A stretch of 15,017 bases of DNA from the NCBI GenBank assembly GCA_018644785.1, contig JABGPV010000122.1, forward strand, positions 1 to 15,017. Direction: 5' to 3'. A program made the position numbers and the translations under genes. The notes beneath the pieces are model-generated. The model was given only the letters and a program-made list of their open reading frames with translations, was not told the origin of the DNA and made no database searches. This document shows positions 2,783 through 15,017 of the stretch, in pieces. Within the stretch, counting starts at the first letter, position 1. Each line of letters starts with the position of its first letter. This DNA is from Deltaproteobacteria bacterium. Lineage in GTDB: Bacteria; Desulfobacterota; DSM-4660; Desulfatiglandales; Desulfatiglandaceae.

Positions 2783-4156
2783 ATGAATTCTCTTTTCAAC
2801 CCCGAATCCGTAGCGGTTATCGGTGCATCGGATAACCCCTCAAAATTGGGGTTTCACGTCATGAAGAGCCTGGTAAACGGTGGATTCGAAGGTGATTTAA
2901 TGCCTGTGAATCCGGGGGCGGAAATGATCTTCGGTTTTAAGGCCTGCGCCTCAGTATCGGCATCTTCAATCCCCATTGACCTGGCCATTGTGGTGGTGCC
3001 CGCAAACCGGGTTTCAGCCGTGTTCCGGGAATGCGCGGACAACAACGTCAAGGGAATTGTGCTCATCACCGCAGGGTTCAAGGAGATCGATGATCCAGCA
3101 GGCGCTGTTTTACATGAGGAGATTGCACAGATTTCTGATGCAGCGGGGATTCCTGTCATCGGTCCCAATACCTTCGGCATGGTGAACCTTTGTGCACATC
3201 TCAACGCTTCCTTTACACCCGAGTTTTCCCAACTGAAGACGGGAAACGTGGCCCTTGTGAGCCAGAGCGGCGGCATTTCTCACCTGCTGGGGTTTCTGGC
3301 CATGCGTGATGGTGTGGGGTTCAGCAAGATTGTAGGTCTGGGAAATCGTCTGAATGTGGATTTTTCAGAAATAGTGGATTACCTGATGGAAGACACGGAC
3401 ACCCGGGTCATTGCCCTTTATGTGGAGGGGATTGATGCCCCCAAAGACCTGCTGGCCGCTGCAAAACGCCATGCTGGGAAAAAGCCCGTGGTGGCCTACA
3501 AAACAGGCAGCGGCACGGTGGGCGATGCGGCGGCCCGGTCCCATACCGGCTCCCTGGCGGGCCGGCACGAGATCTACACCGATGCCTTCAGGCAGGCGGG
3601 AATTCTGACCGTTGACAGCACCCAGTCCTTATTGGATATGGCCAAGGCCTTGGGGTCATGTCCCATGCCCTCAGGAGCAGGTGTAGCGGTCCTGTCGGGT
3701 CAGGCGGGTCCGGCTATGGCCGCCTGCGATGTGTGTGAGTCCCGAGGGCTTGAGATTGTTCGGTTTTCTGAAAAAACCCAAAATAGGATCAATGAACTCC
3801 TGCCCCCCCTGGCCCTTCGAACCAACCCGGTGGACATGGGCCCGGCCTGGTACGATTCAACGGCCATCCAGGGGATCGTTCAGGCGGTCATGGAGGATGA
3901 AAACGTCCACGGCATCCTGTTTTTAATGATGTTTGCCTCCGCCAATGTGGAGGCTTTGGCTGGCATCAGTGGTCTGCTCGCACGATGGGCCCAGAAAAAG
4001 CCCGTGGTGAGCTGTATCCTGTCGCCGCCGGGTATCTGGGATGATCAGATAGAGGAACTTGAGAAAGCGGGGGCACTGGTCAATTATGACACGCCCGAGC
4101 GAGCAGCGGATGTCATGGTCAATTTGTGGAAATACAGGCGGCTTCAGTTGGGATAG
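2783..4156 (+). CDS. ADP-forming acyl-CoA synthetase, alpha-subunit-like (CoA-binding) protein
   Basis: This 457-residue protein starts with an ATG preceded by AAAGGAG at 2768-2774, with an 8-base spacer. The N-terminus (SVAVIGASDNPSKLGF) is a Rossmann-type CoA-binding domain. Two succinyl-CoA-ligase-like domains follow, with VSQSGG near residue 160 and SHTGSLAG, in which His254 matches the phosphohistidine of ADP-forming acetyl-CoA synthetase alpha subunits. The length equals the usual alpha subunit of about 460 residues, without the ATP-grasp (beta) domain found in fused versions. Such enzymes interconvert acyl-CoA, ADP and phosphate with free acid, CoA and ATP. No beta subunit lies in the window, so a partner elsewhere must supply nucleotide binding, or the protein has another acyl-CoA role. 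It begins 30 bases after the RND-kinase gene and could share its transcript. The acyl substrate cannot be read from sequence. Confidence 0.88.
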   Translation: MNSLFNPESVAVIGASDNPSKLGFHVMKSLVNGGFEGDLMPVNPGAEMIFGFKACASVSASSIPIDLAIVVVPANRVSAVFRECADNNVKGIVLITAGFKEIDDPAGAVLHEEIAQISDAAGIPVIGPNTFGMVNLCAHLNASFTPEFSQLKTGNVALVSQSGGISHLLGFLAMRDGVGFSKIVGLGNRLNVDFSEIVDYLMEDTDTRVIALYVEGIDAPKDLLAAAKRHAGKKPVVAYKTGSGTVGDAAARSHTGSLAGRHEIYTDAFRQAGILTVDSTQSLLDMAKALGSCPMPSGAGVAVLSGQAGPAMAACDVCESRGLEIVRFSEKTQNRINELLPPLALRTNPVDMGPAWYDSTAIQGIVQAVMEDENVHGILFLMMFASANVEALAGISGLLARWAQKKPVVSCILSPPGIWDDQIEELEKAGALVNYDTPERAADVMVNLWKYRRLQLG

Positions 4157-4189
4157 GAACGCGACATCAAGCTTCGTATTCCCTGGAAA

Positions 4190-4249
4190 GGTATCCCCCT
4201 GAGGGGAAAGGTCGTGTAGTCGGTGGCTTCAGCCACGCTATGAAATACC
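4190..4249. repeat. Nested inverted repeat, REP-like or structured RNA candidate
   Basis: The outer arms GGTAT (4190-4194) and ATACC (4245-4249) enclose two hairpins. The first is TCCCC-CTGA-GGGGA (4194-4207, sharing one T with the outer arm). The second is GTGGCT-TC-AGCCAC (4223-4236), extendable through C4221/G4237 and TAG/CTA (4217-4219, 4238-4240) with small bulges. A GTAG tetramer sits just 5' of the second hairpin, as in REP elements mobilised by RAYT/IS200-type transposases, but no transposase lies nearby. No T-run follows, so it is not a standard intrinsic terminator. It could also stabilise or end the upstream transcript. I matched it to no known riboswitch. Confidence 0.45.
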
Positions 4250-4331
4250 CCCATTAAGAAAAGGCGGTTTCTCTCTATGAATGCATAAATGCAATGCCTA
4301 TCGGAAAATCAATTTAAATCAAACTCTTTTC

Positions 4332-4358
4332 TTGACAACTCACCTGTTTTATTATACT
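4332..4358 (+). promoter_or_regulatory. Candidate sigma70 promoter for the HTH-receiver gene
   Basis: TTGACA (4332-4337) is a perfect -35 box. TATACT (4353-4358) is a good -10 with a short 15-base spacer, and the overlapping TACTTT (4355-4360) gives 17 bases. It lies in an AT-rich patch about 145 bases before the ATG at 4503, which leaves a long leader containing the heptamer repeat. Confidence 0.5.
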
Positions 4359-4452
4359 TTCCATATGTTCCACTTGTTTCGCATGATTCACACGTTTCTT
4401 ATGTTACCATCTCGTGCTATTTTGAAAATCAGTTCCTGGTTCGTTGTTTTTC

Positions 4453-4476
4453 AACCGTGAACCGTGAACCGTGAAC
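4453..4476 (+). repeat. Perfect heptamer tandem repeat, AACCGTG x 3.4
   Basis: Three exact copies of AACCGTG begin at 4453, 4460 and 4467, followed by AAC at 4474-4476. The array sits in the leader of the HTH-receiver gene, 26 bases before its ATG and just 5' of the AAGGA ribosome-binding site. Degenerate heptamers of related sequence occur at two other gene borders in this window. Copy number could change by slippage. Confidence 0.85.
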
Positions 4477-4502
4477 AGGTAAAAAACAAGGACCATTTCT
4501 CT

Positions 4503-5123
4503 ATGGAAAAAGATTTTTACACCATACCTGAGGCCGCAAAAATTTGTTCTGTGGGCCGTACCACCATGTGGCGATGGGTCAAGTCAGGCAAAGTGAAGGC
4601 CGCCACAACACCGGGTGGTCGACACCGTATTCCAAAGTCCGATCTGCAATTCCTGCTTACCCGGCTGGGAGCCCATCCCTTGCCTGAATCCGGCGAAACA
4701 GCCCATGCGAATCGGTCCTGGAAAACCTCTGTCAGAATTCTTGTGGTGGACGATGATCCTTTCATTCGAGAGATGCTCAGCAGAGCCTTGCAGAATCATG
4801 GCTTTCAAACAGAAGTTGCGGCTGACGGTTTTGAGGCCGGGGTCAAATTGGTGCAGTTCAATCCGGACCTGGTTTTTCTGGATCTGATTATGCCGGGGAT
4901 GGACGGTTTTGAAGTCTGTAGACGAATCAATGAGAATCCAAGTATTTCACAGATAAAGGTGATAGCCATCACGGGTTTTGACACCGAGGAGAACAGGGAT
5001 CAGATCATGAAGGCCGGAGCCGACGGCTATCTGGCAAAACCTTTGGAAACCAGTAAGTTGCTTCAAGAAGTGGAAGTGATTTTATCGGAACCGGTAAATC
5101 TGTTGGCCGCGGGAGGTGAGTAA
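4503..5123 (+). CDS. Response regulator with N-terminal excisionase-type HTH and C-terminal receiver domain
   Basis: The ATG at 4503 is chosen because AAGGA at 4488-4492 lies 10 bases upstream and the protein then begins directly with the HTH. A GTG at 4464 would add 13 residues encoded by repeat sequence. The protein has 206 residues. Residues 4-50 (YTIPEAAKICSVGRTTMWRW, then TTPGGRHRIP) form a MerR/excisionase-like winged helix. A linker leads to a receiver domain from about residue 77, with the acidic triad VVDDDP, phospho-acceptor Asp127 in FLDLIMPGMDG, a Thr in AITGF and Lys in YLAKPL. This domain order is the reverse of most response regulators. It probably regulates transcription when phosphorylated. 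The kinase module of the RND fusion 1.7 kb upstream is the nearest possible donor, which is an inference. The following secreted-protein gene may be its target or a co-transcribed neighbour. Confidence 0.9.
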   Translation: MEKDFYTIPEAAKICSVGRTTMWRWVKSGKVKAATTPGGRHRIPKSDLQFLLTRLGAHPLPESGETAHANRSWKTSVRILVVDDDPFIREMLSRALQNHGFQTEVAADGFEAGVKLVQFNPDLVFLDLIMPGMDGFEVCRRINENPSISQIKVIAITGFDTEENRDQIMKAGADGYLAKPLETSKLLQEVEVILSEPVNLLAAGGE

Positions 5124-5187
5124 GCGAAAAAGAACTAAAGGGCAAAGCATAGTGTGTAACCGTTCAAGTGTCATAGCGGGTGATAAA

Positions 5188-8100
5188 ATGCATAAAAAAA
5201 CGATGATCAATTTCATGGCGGGGACGTTGTTCGCAGCGGTTTTCTCTTTGAACATCGGGGTGTTCGGGTATATACCTTCGGGTGAGGCCCGCCCGGCCTC
5301 CGAGGTGGTCTTTATCGACCCGTCGGTCCGGGACGCGGAAATTATCGTGTCGCAACTGCCCAAAGGGGCCGAGGTGGTGCGGTTTTCACCGGGGATGGAC
5401 GGGGTCGAGCAGATCTCCGCGCATCTTGCGAAAAAGAGGGATCTTTCCGCCATCCGCATCATCTCCCACGGCAACGCCGGACATTTTGTCCTGAACGGGA
5501 AACGAATTGATGTAGATTTCCTGCGGAATCATGGGGGCCGGATCAGTGCCTGGGGCCGGGCACTGGCTCATAACGGAGACATCCTGCTCTATCCCTGTAA
5601 CCTGGCGGCGGACGAACAGGGAAAAAGATTGATTCATGCTATTGCTGAGTGGACCGGGGCTCATGTCGCTGCTTCCACCAACCTCACCGGACAGGGAGGA
5701 GATTGGGGCTTGGAATACGCCCGGGGCACCATAAAGACCGCTGCGCTCAACATCCAGAGGTATACATATGGCCTAGCAAATCAGACAGTTACAAGAAACG
5801 ACGATACCAACCATGGTGGTGGTGGTGTCGAAGGTGATCTAAGATATGCCATCGCCAATGTGGGAGAAGGTGAAGAAATTACTTTCAATATTTCCGGAAG
5901 CGATACTGTGACAATAGCAGCAGAGCTTTCCATTTCTGGAAAAGGCCTGACCATTAACGGTAATAATAGCGCTACCGGAAATAATGTGACCGTTCAGGTA
6001 ACAACCCCGGAAACATCCCTATTCCGTGTCTTCAACATGAACGCCACCGGAAAAACCGTCAACATCAGCAAAATGACCATCAAAGGCGGCCAATTAGGTA
6101 TCGGCGGTTACGGTGGCAGTATTTTCAACGGAAGGGGAACGCTTATTCTAGACGAGGTTACCGTGTCGGGTTCAAAAGCAGAATACGGTGGTGGCGTTTA
6201 TACGGAGAACGCTACGACCACCCTAAACAATTCCACCGTTTCATCATGTGTCGCCACCGAAGATGGTGGGGGCGTATATGGATGGAATACGACTCACTAC
6301 ATTAATAATTGCCTTATTGCAGGAAATACTTCAAATAATACTGGAGGAGGAATAGCAAACATTGGAGGCTCAGGCCCTGCAACAATAGAGATTATAAATT
6401 CCACCATCCAGGGAAACACCGCGGAATACTATGGAGGAGGCATTCATAACTATTCAGGATGTTGCAATACGAGTTTAACAATCATCAATTCAACGGTTTC
6501 CGGGAATAATTCAATAAGACAAGATTACGGAGGTTCCGGGATATTTAATGGTGAACATGCCGATGTCACATTAACAGTAAAGAATTCAATTTTAGCAAAC
6601 AATGCCAGCGATGATGATTACCGTTTTCAAGGCGCCTCCACCTTAACGGATAACGGATACAATATCGTTAAATATCAAAATTTTAACGCTGTAAGTTGGA
6701 CATCTACCAATGCATTTGACAACCCTACAACAATCCTTTTTAATTATGATGATGAAGGCAATGCCAAAGCGGCATGGAACAGGGATGGTACTGATTTAGA
6801 AGGGACGCCGGCACTGGATCTCTCCAATGCGCTGGCCGACAACGGCGGCTTCACCCGAACCCTGGCCATTACATCACAGACCAGCATTGCCGTGGGCAAC
6901 GGACTTTACGATGCATCCGTGACCACCACGGACCAGCGGGGTGCAACGCGCCATAATCCCGGACAGACCATCGGGGCTTATGAATTCTACGCCGACTACG
7001 TAACCAACGGCAATGGAACCTCCTGGAACACGGCCGCCAACTGGAACTTGTATAACGGCGTGACCACACCCGTTGCAACGGTCGCTCCCACCGCGGACAA
7101 TTCCATATCCATTGCCGTGAATCACAATATGAATGTGGATGCGGATGTCACCATCGACCAGACCGCGGTGGCATCCGGCAAAACCCTGACGGTTGCCGCC
7201 ACTAAAACCCTGACCGTTGCAAACGGAGACGGAACGGATTTAACGGTTACAGGCGGGCTAATAAATAATAGCACCATCACCTGCGCAGCCGATTCAATCG
7301 TTCTGTTTAACGGTGTGAACCAGGATCTGCCCTCAATGGTGGCATTTCAGGATCTGACCGTTTCCGGGGGCGGGATCAAGACCTTGACGGGCGGTGGAGT
7401 GACCGTTGACGGCATTCTGACCCTGACCGACGGACTGGTAACCTTGGGCAACAACGACCTGACCTTGGGCGCAAACGCCACTGTAACCGGAACACCGTCC
7501 GCCTCCAATATGATCGTCACCAACGGAAACGGCGTTCTGAAAAAGGTGTTTTCCGCAACCGGATCCTTTACCTTTCCGGTGGGGAACAACGGGGGAACAC
7601 CCCAATACTCGCCCGCCACCCTGGATTTCACCTCCGGTGCCTTTAATTCCGCCTGGGCCGCGGTGGGCGTAACGGACGGGAAACAGCCCAATAACACCAG
7701 TCCCACGGATTACCTGAACAGATACTGGACCGTGACCCAGAGCGGGATTAGCGGTTTTTCCTGTGAAATGATCTTTAACTATCTATCGAATGATGTGGTT
7801 GGCACGGAAGCCGACATCTTTGGGGGCCAGTATAAAGACAGTGCCTGGATCGTCTTGAATGCGGTGGACGCGGCAAACAACAGGTTTCAAGCGACAATCA
7901 GCAGTTTTTCAGATTTCACCGGTGTGGAAGCCTCAAGCCCCACCACCCAGGCCAACAACATCAGCTTCAGCAGCGTGGCCCAGACGCAGATGCAGGTGGG
8001 CTGGACCCGGGGAAACGGCGATAAGGTCCTTGTGGTAGCCCATCAGGGAAGCGCAGTGGACAGCAACCCGGTGGATGGAACCGGCTACACTGCCAACGCA

Positions 8101-9945
8101 GCATTCGGCAGCGGAAGCCAGATCGGGACGGGTAACTACGTGGTGTATAAAGGCACCGGGACCAGCGTAACCGTGACCGGTCTGACCGCGGCCACTACCT
8201 ATCATTTCAGGGCTTATGAATTAAATGATACGATCGACGAAAGGTATAACACCGACACGGCAACGGGCAATCCCAACAACCAAACCACCCTTCCCAACAC
8301 GCCGGGTGCCCCGACCGCAACCGCCGCAACCGCCACCACCCAAACCGGTTTTTCCGCCAACTGGAATGCGGCGACGGGGGCTACGGGCTACAGACTGGAT
8401 GTAGCCACAAACAGCGGGTTTACCAGTTATGTCTCAGGGTACCAGGATAGGGCCTATGCAACGGATGCGGTTGGAACATCATACGGAAACCAAGTTTCTT
8501 TTACCACCCATACGCAGGCGCCAACGGTGACCACCCAGGCGGTGGACAACATCGGCACAGACACCGCAATTGGGAACGGAAATGTCACGGATCTCGGTTC
8601 TCCCGATCCCACCCAGCACGGTGTTTGCTGGAACACCACCGGCACGCCAACCATAGGGGACAGCAAAACGGCACAAGGGCCGGTCAGCGCGACCGGTGCC
8701 TTCACTTCCAATATGACAGGTCTTTCCCCCGATACCACTTACCATGTGAGGGCCTATGCAACGAATACGGGTGGGACAGCATACGGCAATCAGGTTTCCT
8801 TTACCACAAGAGCGCAAGCTGCAATAGTGACCACCCAGGCGGAGACCGCTATCGGCGAAACCACGGCAACCGGGAACGGAAATATCACGAATCTCGGGGC
8901 TCCCCCTCCCACCGAACACGGTGTCTGCTGGAACACTTCAGGCACGCCGACATTAGCGGATAACAACACAGCACAGGGGCCGGTCAGCGCGGCCGGGGCC
9001 TTCACTTCCAGCATGACAGTGCTTTCCCGCAACACCACCTACTATGTCAGGGCCTATGCAACGGATACGGCGGGGACAATATACGGCAATCAAGTTTCTT
9101 TTGCCACCGGTGGGCAGGGCCCAACAGTGACCACCCAAGCCGTCTGGGCCATCGCCAAAACCACGGCAACCGGGAATGGAAATATCACGGATCTCGGGGC
9201 TGCCAATCCCACCCAGCACGGCGTCTGCTGGAACACCACCGGGACGCCAACAACAGCGGATAGCAAAACCACCGACGGTGCTGTAGCGGCAACCGGAGCA
9301 TTCACATCAAATATTACGGGATTACGTCCGGGAACTGACTATTATGTGAGAGCGTATGCAACCAATATGTATGGAACATCGTACGGCAACCAGGTCTTCT
9401 TTATATCTGCAGGGAGGGTGGATTCCGGAAAGCCCTCTTCCTACAAAGTCACCGTGACAAAGGTTCAAATGTACAATCAAACGTCATGGGTGACCCTCTT
9501 TTCAGGGACAGCACAACTTGACACGGTGGCCGGAGGGACATTTCCGGGGATTAGAGATCTAAGCCTGCCGGCAGGCGCCTACTCCCGGATAAGGATTATT
9601 TTCAATAATGCATTCCCCGTTACAGGCACGCTAAGTCATGACGGGACCGCCTATTATACAACGGCCGCCACGTTTGAAGGGAAAATCAACCTAGACAGTA
9701 CTCCGACAACCGTAGCCGGGGACATGGTGGAATTCACATTTTATGAACCCACGTGGGGAGCACTCAACGCGAATGTTACACAAATTTCCGCAATTACCCC
9801 CGTCACCGTCGGACCGGGAACGGATTATCAGCCGACCTTGAGATTTACCGTAAGCAAGACCCTTCATTTGAAGGAGAGTGCAGGGAATGCTCCCAGCCTT
9901 TATTTCTCGTTAGGTGTCCCGACCGTGAGTCTTGTTGAGCCCTAA
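5188..9945 (+). CDS. Large secreted multidomain protein: DUF4347, beta-helix, FN3-like repeats, DUF4382-like C-terminus
   Basis: With ATG 5188 the protein has 1585 residues and opens with a classical signal peptide (HKK, hydrophobic core, likely cut after SGEA, residue 34). An in-frame GTG at 5116 overlaps the upstream gene by 8 bases and would add 24 residues before the signal, which is less likely. Residues 39-190 are a DUF4347 domain with His94 in ISHGNAG and Cys137 in LLYPCNLA. Residues 195-600 form a glycine- and asparagine-rich right-handed beta-helix ending in RGATRHNPGQTIGAYEF. Residues 601-915 are further beta-rich repeats. From about 918 come an FN3-like domain, a chimeric FN3 domain, and three 100-residue repeats (1112-1411) with HGVCWNT and YVRAYAT motifs. 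The last 170 residues resemble DUF4382. No LPXTG, PEP-CTERM or beta-barrel anchor is seen. The likely role is surface or extracellular adhesion, possibly with DUF4347-linked processing; the exact function is unknown. Confidence 0.88.
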   Translation: MHKKTMINFMAGTLFAAVFSLNIGVFGYIPSGEARPASEVVFIDPSVRDAEIIVSQLPKGAEVVRFSPGMDGVEQISAHLAKKRDLSAIRIISHGNAGHFVLNGKRIDVDFLRNHGGRISAWGRALAHNGDILLYPCNLAADEQGKRLIHAIAEWTGAHVAASTNLTGQGGDWGLEYARGTIKTAALNIQRYTYGLANQTVTRNDDTNHGGGGVEGDLRYAIANVGEGEEITFNISGSDTVTIAAELSISGKGLTINGNNSATGNNVTVQVTTPETSLFRVFNMNATGKTVNISKMTIKGGQLGIGGYGGSIFNGRGTLILDEVTVSGSKAEYGGGVYTENATTTLNNSTVSSCVATEDGGGVYGWNTTHYINNCLIAGNTSNNTGGGIANIGGSGPATIEIINSTIQGNTAEYYGGGIHNYSGCCNTSLTIINSTVSGNNSIRQDYGGSGIFNGEHADVTLTVKNSILANNASDDDYRFQGASTLTDNGYNIVKYQNFNAVSWTSTNAFDNPTTILFNYDDEGNAKAAWNRDGTDLEGTPALDLSNALADNGGFTRTLAITSQTSIAVGNGLYDASVTTTDQRGATRHNPGQTIGAYEFYADYVTNGNGTSWNTAANWNLYNGVTTPVATVAPTADNSISIAVNHNMNVDADVTIDQTAVASGKTLTVAATKTLTVANGDGTDLTVTGGLINNSTITCAADSIVLFNGVNQDLPSMVAFQDLTVSGGGIKTLTGGGVTVDGILTLTDGLVTLGNNDLTLGANATVTGTPSASNMIVTNGNGVLKKVFSATGSFTFPVGNNGGTPQYSPATLDFTSGAFNSAWAAVGVTDGKQPNNTSPTDYLNRYWTVTQSGISGFSCEMIFNYLSNDVVGTEADIFGGQYKDSAWIVLNAVDAANNRFQATISSFSDFTGVEASSPTTQANNISFSSVAQTQMQVGWTRGNGDKVLVVAHQGSAVDSNPVDGTGYTANAAFGSGSQIGTGNYVVYKGTGTSVTVTGLTAATTYHFRAYELNDTIDERYNTDTATGNPNNQTTLPNTPGAPTATAATATTQTGFSANWNAATGATGYRLDVATNSGFTSYVSGYQDRAYATDAVGTSYGNQVSFTTHTQAPTVTTQAVDNIGTDTAIGNGNVTDLGSPDPTQHGVCWNTTGTPTIGDSKTAQGPVSATGAFTSNMTGLSPDTTYHVRAYATNTGGTAYGNQVSFTTRAQAAIVTTQAETAIGETTATGNGNITNLGAPPPTEHGVCWNTSGTPTLADNNTAQGPVSAAGAFTSSMTVLSRNTTYYVRAYATDTAGTIYGNQVSFATGGQGPTVTTQAVWAIAKTTATGNGNITDLGAANPTQHGVCWNTTGTPTTADSKTTDGAVAATGAFTSNITGLRPGTDYYVRAYATNMYGTSYGNQVFFISAGRVDSGKPSSYKVTVTKVQMYNQTSWVTLFSGTAQLDTVAGGTFPGIRDLSLPAGAYSRIRIIFNNAFPVTGTLSHDGTAYYTTAATFEGKINLDSTPTTVAGDMVEFTFYEPTWGALNANVTQISAITPVTVGPGTDYQPTLRFTVSKTLHLKESAGNAPSLYFSLGVPTVSLVEP
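8449..9420 (+). repeat. Exact 300-base tandem repeat array inside the secreted protein gene
   Basis: Three full units start at 8521, 8821 and 9121, each exactly 300 bases. A 72-base partial copy (8449-8520) precedes them in register with the end of a unit. Landmarks recur every 300 bases: GTGACCACCCA near each unit start, a GG(C/T)GT(C/T)TGCTGGAACAC core, and ATGCAAC near the end. Each unit encodes one 100-residue FN3-like domain with a single cysteine in GVCWNT. The similarity is visible at DNA level, which suggests recent duplication and possible copy-number change by recombination. Confidence 0.9.
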
Positions 9946-11253
9946 GACCGGCTGTTGCCGTGCCATCCTCAGAAGTTGCAGGGTGATTCTGTTTTTTGCA
10001 CCGGCCCTTTCGACCGCCAGGGAATGTTGTCTGTTTGAGAGATGTTCTTTGGGAAGGTGCGTGAGCGTAAGAAAAAAACGCGTGGCGTAGAAACGGAGAT
10101 GACGCAAAAAATAGAGAAAAGCATCACCTGATGATTGGGTCTCAGGATCGGTTAGGCTACCAGAAAATGGAAACAGCGTCTTTATCACATAAGCAATTTT
10201 ATTTCTAAATCCCTCCCGGTTTTCAATGGCAATTCGGAAACGCCAGATAACACCCCTTACATCCAGTAATCTTTCCTTATCCAATAGGGCAAGCAGGTTC
10301 CGAAGTGAGGCGTGAAATTCGCGCTGAGCGCCATCTTTATGGTTAAGCCGGGGCGCCTGAGACACATGAGGAAGATGCATCATGGTCGAAAGGAATCCCC
10401 TGGTAAGGGCAAATAGCTTTTCAAGACCAAAATCCCGAAACAGGGTTCCAATTGCATCCCGGTTAAGTTGCCCTTCGCAAAAAACAAGCAGTCCCGCAAT
10501 ATCTAAATAGTGTTTCAGAGAAACATCGAACTGATGCTGAACCAGGTGGGCGATGTTGAACAGCAACTCCATTTCGAGACAGAGGACGGGGCAATGAATC
10601 CCCCCGACATCTATCCCTTCCTGACGATCCCAGGCCAGCTGCATAAACCTTTCGTGGTCTTGAATGATCTCGTATGGCATGAAATGGAATTCTAAGATAG
10701 CGCCCCCTGCGGCCTGGACCATGGCCACGTGATGGGGGGATGCGGGGTCGTCTCCCACGTCCATCATGGTGTAACCCAACTGGCGGGCTATGGTTACAAT
10801 TCGCTGTAAGTCGATTGGGGAGCAGAGAATATCCAGATCGGAGAGGGTGCGCAGCGCCGGGTCTTTGTAGATGCGGCCGATCAGGGCAGGGCCTTTCAAG
10901 ACGATAATGGGTATCCCCTCTTTTTCGCATCTTGAAAGGAGTCTTTTCAATAGTTCAAAATATGCCTCGTTTCTGAGGAAATTCCCGAAATAGGCCTGCT
11001 CCCATTTCTGTTTCAGCCATTCAGGAATCTTTATTGGGATCTCGGTGTTTGAGACCATCCAGTAGAGAAGGGGTTCGACGTTATGAAAATAGGCCAGGTT
11101 AGCTATGGCCTTCCAGTTCACATCATCGCCATGGGGGAGTTGTTGCTTTGAATTTCGGTTTTGAAAGAGCCAGGGCCTGGTTGCGGCAAATAGCCAATCG
11201 AGGGCTTGGAGGCGGATGTTTAAGGGGTTCAAGGTTTCGAGTTCCCAGTTCAA
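9910..11253 (-). CDS. NTP_transf_5-like nucleotidyltransferase family protein
   Basis: This 447-residue protein is the last gene of the minus-strand operon. Residues 119-141 contain the minimal nucleotidyltransferase signature: LKG (Lys120), then ALRTLSDLDIL with the metal-binding pair Asp139 and Asp141. EFHF (188-191) gives a further acidic strand typical of the uncharacterised family PF14907. The nucleotide and acceptor are unknown. Members occur beside HprK-like kinases and PqqD-like proteins, including some lasso-peptide clusters, so it may nucleotidylate a kinase-modified peptide or small molecule. The start is TTG at 11253, overlapping the stop of the kinase gene as TTGA. The first ATG lies about 65 residues inside, too far to be the start. 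The first 12 residues are encoded by heptamer repeats and may be a recent extension. Its 3' end overlaps the convergent secreted-protein gene by 36 bases. Confidence 0.82.
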   Translation of the reverse strand: MNWELETLNPLNIRLQALDWLFAATRPWLFQNRNSKQQLPHGDDVNWKAIANLAYFHNVEPLLYWMVSNTEIPIKIPEWLKQKWEQAYFGNFLRNEAYFELLKRLLSRCEKEGIPIIVLKGPALIGRIYKDPALRTLSDLDILCSPIDLQRIVTIARQLGYTMMDVGDDPASPHHVAMVQAAGGAILEFHFMPYEIIQDHERFMQLAWDRQEGIDVGGIHCPVLCLEMELLFNIAHLVQHQFDVSLKHYLDIAGLLVFCEGQLNRDAIGTLFRDFGLEKLFALTRGFLSTMMHLPHVSQAPRLNHKDGAQREFHASLRNLLALLDKERLLDVRGVIWRFRIAIENREGFRNKIAYVIKTLFPFSGSLTDPETQSSGDAFLYFLRHLRFYATRFFLTLTHLPKEHLSNRQHSLAVERAGAKNRITLQLLRMARQQPVLGLNKTHGRDT

Positions 11254-11258
11254 AGTTC
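11224..11258. repeat. Degenerate heptamer repeats across a gene junction (NNRGTTC-like)
   Basis: On the plus strand, consecutive 7-base units run GGGGTTC, AAGGTTT, CGAGTTC, CCAGTTC and AAAGTTC. On the coding (minus) strand the array spans the stop of the kinase gene, the TTG start of the nucleotidyltransferase, and its first ten or so codons. The consensus resembles the reverse complement of the perfect array at 4453 (unit ACGGTTC when rotated). Confidence 0.65.
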
Positions 11259-12077
11259 AGGATTTGGTCCAACCAGTTCCTTTAGCAGTTCTCGCATGGA
11301 TTGTATGCTGTTTGTGCGAAGTCTGAAGATCTCGGCTGCTTCACAGATCCTGATAACAGAATCAAAGAGATGTTCATCATCCCTGTTGGGAGGGAAACAA
11401 TATCCCAGGAGTTCAGTGAACACCTCACCCGGTGTGAGTTCCTCAATTCCCGGTGTTTGGGAAGGACCGTATGCGGGCATCAGGATGGTCTTTAAGGGGA
11501 CCGGATCTGATCCGGCGGCATCAGGATGGTAGCGGGCCATCCGGGAATCCAGAATCTTGAGTTCCCCATTTTGAACCGGGTATAGGGATCGATGTTTTTC
11601 CGCATACGTTCCATCAAGGGTCAGCACCTGGGGGTAGGGATAAACCAGGAGGGTTTCAGGGTCCACCGGCGAAACCTCCTCGCATAAAAAGATATGCCCC
11701 ATCTCCACCAGGTTGAAAGTGGTGGTGGTCTTTCCGGTGTCCGGATTTCCCGGGATGACGCAGGCAGCGTCTCCGATCATCACAGCCCCCGCATGAAACC
11801 CCACCCAGTCCCCGATGGATCGGATGAGGGTATTTTCAATATCCTCTTCCAGACGGCAAATGAGATCAAAACACGACCCAAAATTCCCCGTGAGCTGACC
11901 GTCTTTGAGGAGGAGAAACCCGTTGGGAGCGGATTCGATCGCATATTCATGGCGGGGTGGTAGATGCGTCGCAGGACGTATTGAATGAAAAAACGCGGCT
12001 TGAAAATCAGGAATAATCTCGTCGGGGGCGGTTAAGGAGATATTGAGCTTTGGGAAAGAGAGGAATAAGGTTTTCAT
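11250..12077 (-). CDS. HprK-like P-loop kinase (PqqD-associated)
   Basis: This 275-residue protein resembles the C-terminal catalytic domain of HPr kinase/phosphorylase. The FHAGAV motif (94-99) precedes a Walker A loop GNPDTGKTT (110-118, Lys116), and GHIFLCEEVSPVD (127-139) occupies the place of the GHxLVADD segment. The canonical aspartates there are replaced by Glu133 and Glu134. The N-terminal regulatory domain of true HprK is absent, and no HPr gene is near, so carbon-catabolite control is unlikely. HprK-like proteins paired with PqqD relatives are thought to phosphorylate peptides; lasso-peptide kinases that phosphorylate a terminal serine are the studied example. The ATG overlaps the PqqD-like stop (ATGA) and the stop overlaps the next TTG, so all three genes are translationally coupled. 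Family assignment is firm; the substrate is inferred to be a peptide and is not seen here. Confidence 0.85.
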   Translation of the reverse strand: MKTLFLSFPKLNISLTAPDEIIPDFQAAFFHSIRPATHLPPRHEYAIESAPNGFLLLKDGQLTGNFGSCFDLICRLEEDIENTLIRSIGDWVGFHAGAVMIGDAACVIPGNPDTGKTTTTFNLVEMGHIFLCEEVSPVDPETLLVYPYPQVLTLDGTYAEKHRSLYPVQNGELKILDSRMARYHPDAAGSDPVPLKTILMPAYGPSQTPGIEELTPGEVFTELLGYCFPPNRDDEHLFDSVIRICEAAEIFRLRTNSIQSMRELLKELVGPNPEL

Positions 12078-12337
12078 GTTACTGTGTCGACCAAATGGTA
12101 TTGCAAAAACAGATCCAGTATCTCGTGCAGGTCTTCATTCATTTGGGTTTTGTCACCTTCAAAAACCTCGCTGAGCATATAGAGGAGTTCATCGAATATA
12201 AAGGGCTCCCGAAGGGCCTCCCAGATGAAGAGGGCCGTCTCGTTGAGCACATGTATGCCCTTTTGGTCACTGACATACAGGGCCGTATTGGCACCGACTT
12301 TTTTAACCTTGACCTTTTCAGATTGCTTGTAAAACAT
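12074..12337 (-). CDS. PqqD-like peptide-binding protein (RRE-type)
   Basis: This small protein of 87 residues has the PqqD pattern: basic beta strands at the start, then IHVLNETALFIWEAL (LNxTAxxIW core), an amphipathic helix with DELLYMLSEVF, and a closing helix EDLHEILDLFLQYHLV. PqqD relatives bind leader peptides and present them to modifying enzymes. It heads the operon and overlaps the kinase gene by 4 bases. ATG 12337 is chosen over TTG 12349 because GGAG (12342-12345) precedes it, although with only a 4-base spacer, and because the predicted transcript starts near 12354, leaving almost no leader for the TTG. No leader peptide gene was found in the window, so its partner is unknown. The divergent radical SAM proteins are natural candidates for cooperation. 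Confidence 0.85.
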   Translation of the reverse strand: MFYKQSEKVKVKKVGANTALYVSDQKGIHVLNETALFIWEALREPFIFDELLYMLSEVFEGDKTQMNEDLHEILDLFLQYHLVDTVT

Positions 12338-12360
12338 GATACTCCGCAAGTATTTCCACG

Positions 12361-12389
12361 AGAATAATCCATTTGGGTGGTGAGGTCAA
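12361..12389 (-). promoter_or_regulatory. Sigma70-like promoter for the PqqD-like/HprK-like/nucleotidyltransferase operon
   Basis: Read on the minus strand, TTGACC (12389-12384) and TATTCT (12366-12361) are separated by exactly 17 bases. Transcription would start near 12354, about 17 bases before the chosen ATG, with the GGAG ribosome-binding site inside the short leader. Confidence 0.6.
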
Positions 12390-12391
12390 TA

Positions 12392-12403
12392 TTCAAGCTT
12401 GAA
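12392..12403. promoter_or_regulatory. Perfect 12-base palindrome TTCAAGCTTGAA, candidate operator
   Basis: The palindrome lies 2 bases upstream of the -35 box of the minus-strand promoter and between the two divergent units, where a dimeric regulator could control both. No regulator gene sits next to it, and a single 12-base palindrome can occur by chance, so this is a candidate only. Confidence 0.35.
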
Positions 12404-12493
12404 ATAAAGCCCTCTCCTTCGGGCAGGACTTTTTAAATGTCGCTTTTATTTTGTGGTGGGAAGTGGTATGTTTTTTATCTTTTTCCATTAAAC

Positions 12494-12500
12494 GAGGGGA
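12494..12500 (+). promoter_or_regulatory. Ribosome-binding site GAGGGGA ahead of a non-standard ATC start
   Basis: GAGGGGA is followed by a 6-base spacer and an ATC codon at 12507, in frame with the first radical SAM gene. It is the only good Shine-Dalgarno sequence for that gene. The nearest canonical start, GTG 12588, has a purine run directly against it and no usable spacing. Confidence 0.5.
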
Positions 12501-12506
12501 CATCCA

Positions 12507-13574
12507 ATCCACAATCAAACGGAAAGAACCACTTATCGGTTCAAAGACCTTCTGGCCGATCCGGAAACAGACCGGCGTTGGGAAAGGGTGCGCCGCTATT
12601 TTTTCCTGCGGGAGTCCACCTATGACATGACCCATCGCTGTAACATCCAATGCGACGGCTGTTATTACTATGAGGGGGATAAGCAGTTTGCCCACGATAA
12701 CCGGGATCCTGAGCAGTGGCGGCAGCTCATGAAAGCGGAAAAAAAGAGGGGTATCACCTATGTGGTTCTGGCGGGCGCCGAACCGTCTCTTGTGCCGGAT
12801 CTTTGTGATGTTTGCTACCGCGAGATCCCCCTGGGTGCCATTGCAACCAATGGTTTAAGGGAAATTCCTGAGCCTGTGGGCTATAAAATTCATATTTCCG
12901 TCTGGGGGAATGATGAGACCAGCGCCCGGATTCGGCACCGGAAGGGTATGTTGCAACAACAGATCGCCAACTACCGGGGGGACGATAGGGCGGTCTTTGT
13001 GTATACCTTCACCCGGAACAACATCGCAGATGCCGAAGACGTGCTGGAGATGCTTGCGGAGGCGGGGTGCAAGGTCACCTTCAACATGTTTTCCGCGCCC
13101 GTTGGCTATGAAGGCCCCCTTCGCCATACGGAAATATCGCTCAAACTCGTTCGGGAAACCATGATGGCGCTTCTCTCCGGGTATCCCGATACCGTCCTCT
13201 TTTCCCCCTATAACGTTGTGGCCCACACCCACCCTTATGGTCTCCATGACCTCTACGCCTGCCCTTATCCCAGAATGAACCCGTCGAAAGCCCAGGGGCT
13301 GGGCCGGTCTTTTCGGCAGTATCGCACGGATCTCACGTGGGACCGGTCGGCGGCCTGCTGCGTTCCGGATACGGACTGCAAAGATTGCCGGCATTATGCC
13401 GCCGGGAGTGCCATTGTAACGGCAAAACTGTTTCGGCATGGGACTGATCCGAATTTGTTCAGGGCCTGGCTCGATTATGTGGATACCTATCTTTCGGTGT
13501 GGGTGATGGGGTATGAGAAGGGTGAAAACCTGTGCCCACAGCTTGTACCTCCGCCCGGGTATGATCTTTTTTAG
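12507..13574 (+). CDS. Radical SAM protein with C-terminal cysteine motif, first paralogue
   Basis: The 4Fe-4S motif CNIQCDGC (CX3CX2C) begins at base 12639, followed by the radical SAM barrel. VLAGAEPSL stands where most members have GGE. The C-terminal region has a CP pair and then CCVPDTDCKDC, probably ligands for an auxiliary cluster or metal. The start is uncertain. GTG 12588 is the nearest canonical codon, but coding-like sequence (RFKDLLADPETDRRWERV) continues upstream and aligns with the N-terminus of the next gene, and the frame is open back to a TAA at 12489. ATC 12507 is proposed because of its ribosome-binding site; CTG 12552 is the other option. The product is 355 residues from ATC or 328 from GTG. 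It probably acts with the next radical SAM protein on the same or a related substrate. The reaction is unknown. Confidence 0.85.
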   Translation: MHNQTERTTYRFKDLLADPETDRRWERVRRYFFLRESTYDMTHRCNIQCDGCYYYEGDKQFAHDNRDPEQWRQLMKAEKKRGITYVVLAGAEPSLVPDLCDVCYREIPLGAIATNGLREIPEPVGYKIHISVWGNDETSARIRHRKGMLQQQIANYRGDDRAVFVYTFTRNNIADAEDVLEMLAEAGCKVTFNMFSAPVGYEGPLRHTEISLKLVRETMMALLSGYPDTVLFSPYNVVAHTHPYGLHDLYACPYPRMNPSKAQGLGRSFRQYRTDLTWDRSAACCVPDTDCKDCRHYAAGSAIVTAKLFRHGTDPNLFRAWLDYVDTYLSVWVMGYEKGENLCPQLVPPPGYDLF

Positions 13575-13621
13575 GTATAAGGTGTAAGGTTTAAGGTGTT
13601 AGACTGGGTACCTTATACCTA
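13572..13621. repeat. Inverted repeat with 12-base arms containing degenerate heptamers, between the radical SAM genes
   Basis: TAGGTATAAGGT (13572-13583, beginning with the stop codon of the upstream gene) is the exact reverse complement of ACCTTATACCTA (13610-13621). The left arm and loop are a degenerate heptamer series: GGTATAA, GGTGTAA, GGTTTAA, GGTGTTA. In RNA this would fold into a long hairpin just before the AAAGGAG ribosome-binding site (13628-13634) of the second radical SAM gene. There is no T-run after it, so partial attenuation or transcript processing is more likely than full termination. Confidence 0.75.
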
Positions 13622-13644
13622 TCAATCAAAGGAGTTGTTTCTAG

Positions 13645-14643
13645 ATGAAAACCGTCAGTTCCCTGTTAAACGAAGAATGGTACAATCGGTACAAAACAAT
13701 TTCAAAACTGAATATCAGAAGTTCCATTTACGATGTCACTAATCGATGCAACCTTCGGTGCAAGGGATGCTTTTTTTTCTCCTCCGGGGAGCATGAAGCG
13801 GCCCGCGAAGAGATGGATATTCGAAAATGGGAGGACTTCATCGACAGGGAAATGGCAAGGGGGGTCAACCTGGCCATATTGATCGGTGGAGAGCCCACCC
13901 TGTGTCTCGATCGGGTGGAAGCCTTTTACAGCCGGCTACCCACCTTCTGTGCCACAAACGGCCTGATCAAAGTGCCGCGAGACCGATTTCCCCATATGAT
14001 GGTGGGCATTTCATTGTGGGGCGATGAAGAGGATGAAAAAACCCTTCGGGGAAAAGACACGTTTTCCATCTCAAGCAAGCATTATGCGGGGGATTCACAT
14101 GCCTATTACCTCTATACCCTTACGCCCAAACAGATGGGGAAAACAGAGCGGCTCGTCAAAAAAATCAGGAATGCGGGTCTGAAGGTCCATATGCAGCTTC
14201 TTTCGAACGATGAGGGGGTGGACCAGTTCTTCTGGAGCGATGAACAGTTGAAAGATATCCGGGACGAAATGGACCAGATGCTGGATTATTATCCTGACAC
14301 GGTCATTTCATCAAAATACTACCATCGTATTATCACCACCGGAAAAATGCTGGATCGTTCATTCGGGTGGGATGAGTGTCCTTCCGTCACCGAACCCCTG
14401 GACAAAAGAGATCCCGGCCCCAAGCGCCTCATCGGCTTTATCAGATGGGCGTCGGATCTTAAAACCACGCATCGATGCTGCACCTCCGAGACCCGGGACT
14501 GTTCAACCTGCAAAGACGGGGCTGCCCATATGAGCTGGGTTATGGTCAACAAGCGGGCCCACCTCCGTTCTGAAGAAGACCTGAAGGGGTGGATTGAGGT
14601 GTATGAGATGTTTGCCAAACTCTACCAGTTTATTCCATGGTAA
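13645..14643 (+). CDS. Radical SAM protein with C-terminal cysteine motif, second paralogue
   Basis: This 332-residue protein starts at an ATG with AAAGGAG 10 bases upstream. Cys35, Cys39 and Cys42 in CNLRCKGC bind the 4Fe-4S cluster. IGGEPTL is the SAM-binding GGE motif, and SLWGDEED matches SVWGNDET in the upstream paralogue. The C-terminus repeats the paralogue's pattern: a CP pair, about 40 residues, then CCTSETRDCSTC. It is separated from the first paralogue by 70 bases holding a hairpin, and overlaps the following ketoacyl synthase by 7 bases, so those two are translationally coupled. The pair is not a recognised PqqE, MoaA or NifB. The coupling to a ketoacyl synthase suggests modification of an acyl chain or an ACP-bound intermediate, while the divergent PqqD-like gene would argue for a peptide substrate. 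Confidence 0.88.
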   Translation: MKTVSSLLNEEWYNRYKTISKLNIRSSIYDVTNRCNLRCKGCFFFSSGEHEAAREEMDIRKWEDFIDREMARGVNLAILIGGEPTLCLDRVEAFYSRLPTFCATNGLIKVPRDRFPHMMVGISLWGDEEDEKTLRGKDTFSISSKHYAGDSHAYYLYTLTPKQMGKTERLVKKIRNAGLKVHMQLLSNDEGVDQFFWSDEQLKDIRDEMDQMLDYYPDTVISSKYYHRIITTGKMLDRSFGWDECPSVTEPLDKRDPGPKRLIGFIRWASDLKTTHRCCTSETRDCSTCKDGAAHMSWVMVNKRAHLRSEEDLKGWIEVYEMFAKLYQFIPW

Positions 14644-15017
14644 AACGTGCCGTTATCCTGGGTTACGATGCGGTGTCCCCCCTGGGGACGGACATGGAGA
14701 CCCAATGGGAAAATGCTGCCGGGGGCAAAAGCGGGATCGGGCCGCTGACGCGTTTCCCCTTGACAGATGAATTCCCGGTCCGTATCGCGGGGCAGGTCGG
14801 CGAATGGGATGCTTCGCCGTATCCCTTTCTGTCACCGAGGAAACTGGCTCAATGGGCTTCTCCCATTTTTAAGCATGCCATGCTGGTGACACACCGTGCC
14901 CTCTTGAAAAGTGGCGTGGAGATAACCGCTGAAGTGGCTCCCAGAACGGCTGTTACCTTTAGCTCCGCCGTGGGGGGGCAGGACGCGGTGCTGGCTGCCG
15001 ACAGAAGGATGATTCGT
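14637..15017 (+). CDS. Beta-ketoacyl-ACP synthase, FabF/KAS-II-like (3' partial)
   Basis: An ATG at 14637 opens a frame that runs off the right edge, so only 127 residues are present. The start VKRAVILGYDAVSPLG is the typical N-terminal strand and turn of FabF-type ketoacyl synthases, followed by WENAAGGKSGIGPLTRF, also characteristic, and RTAVTFSSAVGG near residue 105. The catalytic Cys-His-His lies beyond the window and cannot be checked, so a chain-length-factor-like or inactive member is possible. The gene overlaps the radical SAM stop by 7 bases (the ATG precedes the TAA), so it depends on that operon. Condensing enzymes next to radical SAM genes occur in clusters for unusual lipids or polyenes. 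This may be the first gene of such a cluster to the right. Confidence 0.87.
   Translation, partial: MVKRAVILGYDAVSPLGTDMETQWENAAGGKSGIGPLTRFPLTDEFPVRIAGQVGEWDASPYPFLSPRKLAQWASPIFKHAMLVTHRALLKSGVEITAEVAPRTAVTFSSAVGGQDAVLAADRRMIR

Follow-up and report, generated by a model that had tools for sequence, protein, structure and literature searches.

One of the questions raised by a 15,017-nucleotide stretch of a Deltaproteobacteria bacterium genome (NCBI GenBank assembly GCA_018644785.1, contig JABGPV010000122.1; the whole stretch is called here the window) is whether two gene groups that stand there head to head work together and, if not, what each of them may do. The first group, the trio, encodes a PqqD-like protein, an HprK-related kinase and an NTP_transf_5 nucleotidyltransferase-like protein (NTP5). 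The second encodes two paralogous radical S-adenosylmethionine (SAM) enzymes (rSAM1 and rSAM2) and a ketosynthase (KS). The genes are present as a sequence-only reading of the same DNA had called them; it had also proposed that both groups share a control region of 170 bases and act in one pathway. The explanation that fits our data best, to which we give a probability of about 0.72, is that these are two independent systems: the trio, as a peptide-modification unit able to act in trans, would modify peptides exported by the twin-arginine translocation (Tat) route, and the radical SAM and ketosynthase genes would belong to a separate acyl cluster. Gene content, conservation, linkage and the presence of an insert are the observations on which this explanation is built.

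In a scan of genome contigs 311 relatives of rSAM2 were found and the best 80 loci were fetched, of which 27 have full flanks of 10 kb. The trio is absent from all 80 in the DNA covered, and neither the three trio proteins nor the C-terminal domain of the surface-type protein encoded beside the trio gave any match at E<=1e-3 in these loci. When 395 genomes of the phylum were sampled, rSAM2 was detected in 28 (E<=1e-100) and the kinase in one (E<=1e-20), G169, which lies outside those 28; thus no genome in the sample has both. Genome BH30 does hold the trio and the rSAM genes, on different contigs. What speaks for a joint pathway, in which both groups tailor one product under a shared control region, is that they are adjacent and divergent in the window. 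A neighbourhood comparison had been named beforehand as the check able to refute such joint action; it was run and the operons were found to occur independently in relatives, which leaves the joint pathway with almost no probability. The two head-to-head operons are therefore better regarded, on comparative grounds, as independent neighbouring systems.

The same comparison suggests how they came to be neighbours. In NaphS2 (locus L004) and in the genome of locus L003 the genes for an MMPL-kinase fusion, a CoA-ligase-like protein (ACS), rSAM1, rSAM2 and the ketosynthase are consecutive, with a gap of about 300 bases between ACS and rSAM1. The similarity of the window DNA to L003 and L004 ends at 4136 and 4107, respectively, and returns at 12534, and a short segment near 12400-12490 can be aligned (by alignment only) to their ACS-rSAM1 intergenic DNA. 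Because the genes that flank window positions 4157-12400 are neighbours in NaphS2 and L003, the window is seen by this comparison to carry, at the upstream end of the rSAM cluster, an insert of about 8 kb that holds the trio and the gene for the surface protein. On the trio side, the BH30 trio (locus L083), which is found on another contig, shows 83% DNA identity over window positions 9965-12393. The DNA common to both extends to 12393 and includes the promoter-like site at 12389-12361, whose TTGACC-17-TATTCT pattern is also found in the BH30 trio DNA; upstream of the trio one such site was found where 0.5 are expected by chance. Since the gene order is uninterrupted in L003 and NaphS2 and the trio DNA stands on a separate contig in BH30, the supposed control region is rather a seam at which two adjoining blocks, each with its own upstream DNA (trio DNA to 12393, rSAM upstream DNA from about 12400), meet near 12394-12400, and not a jointly evolved element. 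In the rSAM locus of BH30 (L002), the closest relative with flanks, different genes stand in the insert's place (4400-8926), namely a glycosyltransferase fusion, a gene with a weak Lar_N match and an ACS remnant, which suggests a repeatedly used insertion site.

If the trio stands apart, the next question is what it acts on. The sequence-only reading had taken it as a modification set for ribosomally synthesized and post-translationally modified peptides (RiPPs) whose precursor might lie elsewhere, and this part of it held up well: in L083 and in the G169 trio locus (L085) a small gene is located between the surface gene and the trio, on the strand of the surface gene. The two peptides, of 71 and 67 residues, are 49% identical and have the same layout of SRRxF, a hydrophobic stretch, YKKPAxRSFFG, AYA and a short tail. 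A search with both gave 195 relatives at E<=1 among 231 candidates. Our motif counts cover the best 120 of the 195 (weakest E=9e-29), which are those closest to the query, so that more divergent forms are under-represented. RRxF is found in 119 of them, YxxPx[VILFA] in 120, [AS]xA[AST] in 118 and AYA in 116, and 116 end in GDS plus one residue. All 116 members with AYA have Ser as their penultimate residue and 14-17 residues after AYA. The precursors are thus about 70 residues long, Tat-signal-like, with a YxxP motif, and in most relatives they end in LKGDSN. No Pfam match was obtained for three members and no NCBIfam match above cut-off for seven, and a search of the open-access literature did not find a Tat-type precursor of such kind described.

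Kinase and peptide appear to travel together. BH30 and G169 have both the trio and the peptide, and the nine other genomes tested for both have neither. Among 297 genomes of the phylum, eight match the precursor profile at E<=0.01, with only G169 as a strong match (5e-39); the seven weak matches (4e-4 to 9e-3) were treated as chance. By exact contig sizes of at least 4 kb, the kinase list (51 distinct sizes) has nine in common with that of the peptide (48 distinct), BH30's own being one of the nine, and none of the rSAM2 list (68 distinct) is common to either; across all sizes the rSAM2 and peptide lists have one in common, 1195. In one named assembly the peptide (JRL30_27250) and the kinase (JRL30_27260) have neighbouring locus tags, and the longest contig size given for the two is identical. 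BH30 holds four full-length peptide genes on three contigs, together with one fragment match, and a single trio. Taken together, this makes it probable that the trio decorates a small exported peptide.

The gene next to the peptide is also conserved. All five placed full peptide genes (four in BH30 and one in G169) lie 41-132 bases downstream of an open reading frame (ORF) on the same strand that ends in the C-terminal domain of the window's DUF4347 protein (9403-9942; 39-74% identical). The regions upstream of this shared domain vary, with fn3, laminin-G, PKD or DUF4347. The domain itself matches DUF4382 below cut-off only, and its fold was predicted with low confidence (mean pLDDT 55), the model giving no match against the PDB at E<=0.001. 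The trio's conserved neighbour in the window, the convergent gene at 5116-9945, lies outside the region 9910..15017 that the sequence-only reading had marked.

Close to the C-terminal end of the surface domain stands a stretch (FLLKGSAG, for example) similar to FSLKGDSN, the tail of the peptide; it is seen in the window, L083, L085 and the BH30 loci L099, L100 and L101, and may be either strand mimicry or chance. One possible option is that the trio modifies this C-terminal domain and that the small peptide is a cofactor or decoy. The FxLK[GE]xS-like stretch (noted by reading, with no statistics) would fit such a target, as does the convergence of the trio with a gene bearing the domain in all three trio loci (window, L083 and L085). 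The YxxP motif expected for binding by a RiPP recognition element (RRE) is instead found in all of the best 120 peptides, the surface proteins having not been systematically searched for it, and we regard the surface domain as an unlikely target.

Three further observations were made in the BH30 loci. In L100, a caspase-like (Peptidase_C14) protein with an Lcl_C domain is encoded at 3195-4409, shortly upstream of the surface and peptide genes, and a second DUF4347 ORF at 7944-8708, whose N-terminus is similar to that of the window protein, is cut by the contig end. In L101 (1-2043) a small P-loop ORF adjoins a radical SAM/SPASM gene, a pair reminiscent of a SynChlorMet-type cassette.

In L083 the surface gene and the trio are separated by 283 bases that include the peptide gene, whereas the window has an overlap of 36 bases between the NTP5 ORF (from 9910) and the surface ORF (to 9945). 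The C-terminal tail of NTP5 differs here from that of L083 and runs into surface-gene DNA. The simplest reading of this arrangement would be that the peptide gene was deleted in the window's genome. It can then be asked whether the trio is by now a decaying orphan that lost its peptide and has no present function, which would be compatible with our best explanation as far as the relatives are concerned. The missing peptide gene, the overlapping ORFs and the altered tail point in this direction; against it, all three trio ORFs are intact, and in BH30 one trio accompanies four peptide genes on three contigs, so the precursors may lie elsewhere. Present loss of function is thus improbable.

The trio genes have the same order in the window, L083 and L085. 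The PqqD-like protein is 81% identical to that of L083 and 70% to that of L085, probably starts at ATG 12337 as in L083, and gave no match at E<=0.1 in a PDB sequence search. In the kinase, the P-loop Lys116, His95 and Glu133-Glu134 are invariant among 24 aligned relatives, and a PDB profile search found HPr(Ser) kinase 3tqf (E=0.003). The kinase has no Pfam match above cut-off, and it resembles HprK-related kinase A (TIGR04352) but with a score below the curated cut-off (47.9 against 200 bits). In the protein database 143 relatives of the kinase were found at E<=1e-3, with no relative among the viral contigs and no match among the plasmids searched. Of the 25 genomes from which related loci came, two have it at E<=1e-5, the match in one of these being weak (4e-10); it also occurs in one of 85 genomes of NaphS2's class (BH30) and in one of 17 of G169's class (G169 itself). 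Transposase-like genes (DDE_Tnp_ISAZ013, Y1_Tnp) stand near the BH30 trio and peptide genes (L083 13236-13877; L099 9959-10933) and are a possible means of spread.

Based on these data a likely order of events can be suggested, in which each step is conditional. The PqqD-like protein, as an RRE, would bind the YxxP motif (YKKPAxRSFFG) inside the Tat-signal-like region of the precursor. The HprK-like kinase would then phosphorylate the short C-terminal core, most likely at the penultimate Ser, and the NTP_transf_5 protein (PF14907) would probably add a nucleotide or sugar to that phosphate. After modification the peptide would be exported by Tat and cleaved after AxA, and the processed peptide may work with the large surface-type protein encoded just upstream.

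A similar set of enzymes is found in the linear polyphosphorylated peptide (LPP) clusters. The accessible part of their description gives an RRE, an HprK-like kinase and an NTP transferase, with LppK phosphorylating the precursor at core Ser3; no effect of LppN could be detected in the host used for testing. The authors state that LPPs occur in Bacillota only and call their biological role unknown (PMC13381572). As far as that description goes, the likeness lies in a discrete RRE, an HprK-like kinase (here with a low model score) and an NTP transferase found together, in linear precursors with YxxPx[V/L/I/F/A] (here in all of the best 120 members, and with no member in the window), in the lack of any macrolactam cyclase seen, and in the surroundings, as the G169 trio adjoins glycosyltransferase genes and LPP clusters occur in polysaccharide loci. 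The differences are that the trio is found in Desulfobacterota, that its precursors resemble a Tat signal peptide followed by a tail of 14-17 residues, that a surface-protein gene stands beside each placed peptide gene, and that a scan of neighbouring ORFs in L083 and L085 (all but a few) found no SpI-type signal peptidase or MsbA-like exporter. As the scanned neighbours did not include the peptidase and exporter by which LPP clusters are defined, we class the trio as similar to the LPP machinery in its way of working, but as no member of the LPPs. It would best be read as a Desulfobacterota counterpart of the Bacillota system, with all of the trio's chemistry inferred.

Several points weigh against this reading, among them that no such peptidase or exporter was seen in the neighbours scanned. 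The third step, that of the NTP_transf_5 protein, is the least secure, since deleting LppN changed nothing detectable in the LPP system (PMC13381572). The G169 peptide, with GRAD at its end, is without the penultimate Ser, an argument against a universal phosphosite. The N-terminus of the peptide is a Tat signal by motif, and the Tat model TIGR01409 matched one of seven peptides, below cut-off. The window has no recognisable peptide gene, and no window segment is among the 20 best-scoring segments listed for the precursor profile. Contig size, by which part of the linkage of kinase and peptide was counted, is a mere proxy for contig identity, and the link to the surface gene consists of five copies in two genomes. 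Finally, a signal-like N-terminus was recognised by eye in three of six surface-type proteins (window, L085 and L101), the other three ORFs looking 5'-truncated or split.

Part of the same enzymology is known from phosphorylated lasso peptides. In paeninodin/pseudomycoidin-type clusters the same three families occur; in the accessible portion of the source, the kinase acts on the C-terminal Ser, and PsmN, a nucleotidyltransferase-like enzyme that works on the phosphate, is linked to a hexose on the phosphorylated Ser, nucleotidylation being not excluded (PMC9266682). It can thus be asked whether the trio is a leftover or variant of such a cluster. No cyclase or B2 protease was seen among the L083 and L085 neighbours scanned (with a few ORFs unscanned), the PqqD-like protein scores 16.5 with the lasso PqqD model, whose cut-off is 80, the conserved Ser is penultimate, and the kinase has Glu-Glu where the lasso kinase motif has Asp-Asp, if the motifs are rightly aligned. 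A lasso origin is very improbable.

The reading of the trio as a modifier of Tat-exported peptides can be taken further. We tentatively propose, with clearly less than even confidence, a new RiPP class in which the Tat signal is at the same time the leader that the RRE recognises, and from which a peptide of about 15 residues, phosphorylated and decorated further, is released. A large surface protein would have this peptide as its dedicated partner, be it an anchor, a strand donor or a cap, and a single trio would serve, in trans, several such pairs of peptide and surface protein in one genome. The proposal is weakened because only three of the six surface-type proteins have the signal-like N-terminus. 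The trio is the novel part of this locus, and for the RRE-HprK-nucleotidyltransferase set of Desulfobacterota a candidate substrate family with concrete peptide sequences is now offered. This points to a leader function of Tat signals in RiPPs and to a possible pairing of such peptides with surface proteins, which is a lead on the biological role of the LPPs.

The second group of genes recurs across Desulfobacterota. In the best 80 rSAM2 loci, rSAM1 (at least 65% identity) is found in 77; L001 and L028 start at a contig edge and L045 is without it. In 70 loci the ketosynthase start was detected; of the ten without it, six end less than 300 bases from rSAM2 (L011, L014, L042, L051, L052 and L074), and four show no such truncation (L017, L040, L045 and L080). 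Other neighbours, in loci of which many are cut short, are a second ketosynthase (74, a count that may include cross-matches), an acyl carrier protein (ACP; 67), a FabA-like dehydratase (64), a thioesterase (56), PS-DH (54), a B12-type radical SAM protein (48), a ketoreductase (28), LolA (26), PlsY (20) and an MMPL-methyltransferase (17); the domain names are taken from L041, L010 and L059. In the nearest lineage, a relative of the ACP (71-73% identical) stands away from the rSAM genes, as seen in BH30, in the L003 genome and in NaphS2. In the protein database rSAM2 has 1912 relatives at E<=1e-3. Its structure model (mean pLDDT 73) has as best folds sactipeptide, anSME, DesII and viperin radical SAM enzymes and, as these are several different enzymes, no specific reaction can be assigned to it. 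The products of rSAM1 and rSAM2 are 27% identical over 311 columns, and CxxxCxxC and five more Cys are kept in both paralogues in an alignment of 23.

Two known types of cluster can be compared. As far as the accessible description of the E. coli aryl polyene (APE) cluster goes (PMC8253772), L041, L010 and L059 share with it ApeP-like and ApeI-like dehydratases, LolA, DUF3261, a ketoreductase, two ACPs, several ketosynthases, a 4HBT thioesterase and an MMPL protein, most of these genes lying outside the window. They differ in having two B12-type and two further radical SAM enzymes, and the proteins scanned in these loci did not include an ApeH-like starter ligase, no dedicated search having been made. 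In the part of the source available, radical SAM genes in type II fatty-acid synthesis (FASII)-like clusters are described for Kuenenia and Desulfotalea psychrophila, the latter making C31:8 and C31:9 hydrocarbons (PMC2649909). The likeness, compared by text and not by the DP1855/DP1853 or Kuste3343/3342 sequences, is that a member of the Desulfobacterota has a FASII-like cluster with both radical SAM enzymes and atypical ketosynthases, whereas no phytoene-desaturase-like gene was seen among the proteins scanned here. Ladderane clusters of the antiSMASH type are also given for Desulfobacterota metagenome-assembled genomes of the Cariaco Basin in the accessible text of PMC9902471.

By its conserved neighbourhood, the rSAM pair with the ketosynthase is a long-established part of an aryl-polyene/ladderane-like fatty-acid cluster of Desulfobacterota, which would be an anaerobic type II fatty-acid/polyene-like one. 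The operon probably makes an unusual fatty-acid-like chain, and any identity given to the acyl product is a guess. The proposal of unusual acyl chemistry in the sequence-only reading is thus partly supported, by the position among acyl-chain genes in relatives. Set apart from the trio, these genes recur in an uncharacterised acyl-chain cluster and merit separate study.

Another point concerns the start of rSAM1. N-terminal residues that are conserved in relatives are already encoded from about 12507 on, downstream of an in-frame TAA at 12489-12491. GTG 12588 therefore comes too late and is probably not the start, and the conserved stretch upstream of it contains no ATG, GTG or TTG. At 12507 an ATC is preceded by a GAGGGG stretch; the missing standard start may reflect either an unusual start codon or a base error. 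The features of the window are collected in Table 1.

Table 1. Features of the window, with positions, strand and the basis of each assignment.
Feature	Position	Strand	Basis or remark
MMPL transporter-histidine kinase fusion	2-2752	+	domain and synteny comparison; 5' end cut by the window
CoA-ligase-like gene (ACS)	2783-4156	+	same order in L003 and L004
Inserted stretch, about 8.2 kb	4157..12400		between ACS and the rSAM operon; borders approximate
HTH_17 + response-regulator protein	4464..5123	+	overlaps the ORF of the surface gene; within the inserted stretch
Large surface-type protein, ORF of 1609 residues, DUF4347 + fn3	5116..9945	+	convergent with the trio; likely start ATG near 5188
NTP_transf_5 nucleotidyltransferase-like protein (NTP5)	9910..11253	-	PF14907, E=1e-42
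HprK-related kinase	11250..12077	-	TIGR04352, E=1e-12, 47.9 bits (cut-off 200)
PqqD-like protein, discrete RRE-type domain	12074..12349	-	Pfam PF05402, E=1e-7
Promoter-like site of the trio, TTGACC-17-TATTCT	12361..12389	-	same hexamers and spacing in L083
rSAM1, radical SAM	12507..13574	+	PF04055, E=3e-9; GTG 12588 too late as start
rSAM2, radical SAM	13645..14643	+	PF04055, E=4e-7
FabF-like ketosynthase (KS)	14637..15017	+	TIGR03150, E=4e-17; cut by the window end

At the other end of the window an MMPL domain and a HisKA/HATPase histidine kinase are encoded in a single ORF, and this fusion is retained in L002, L003 and L004.

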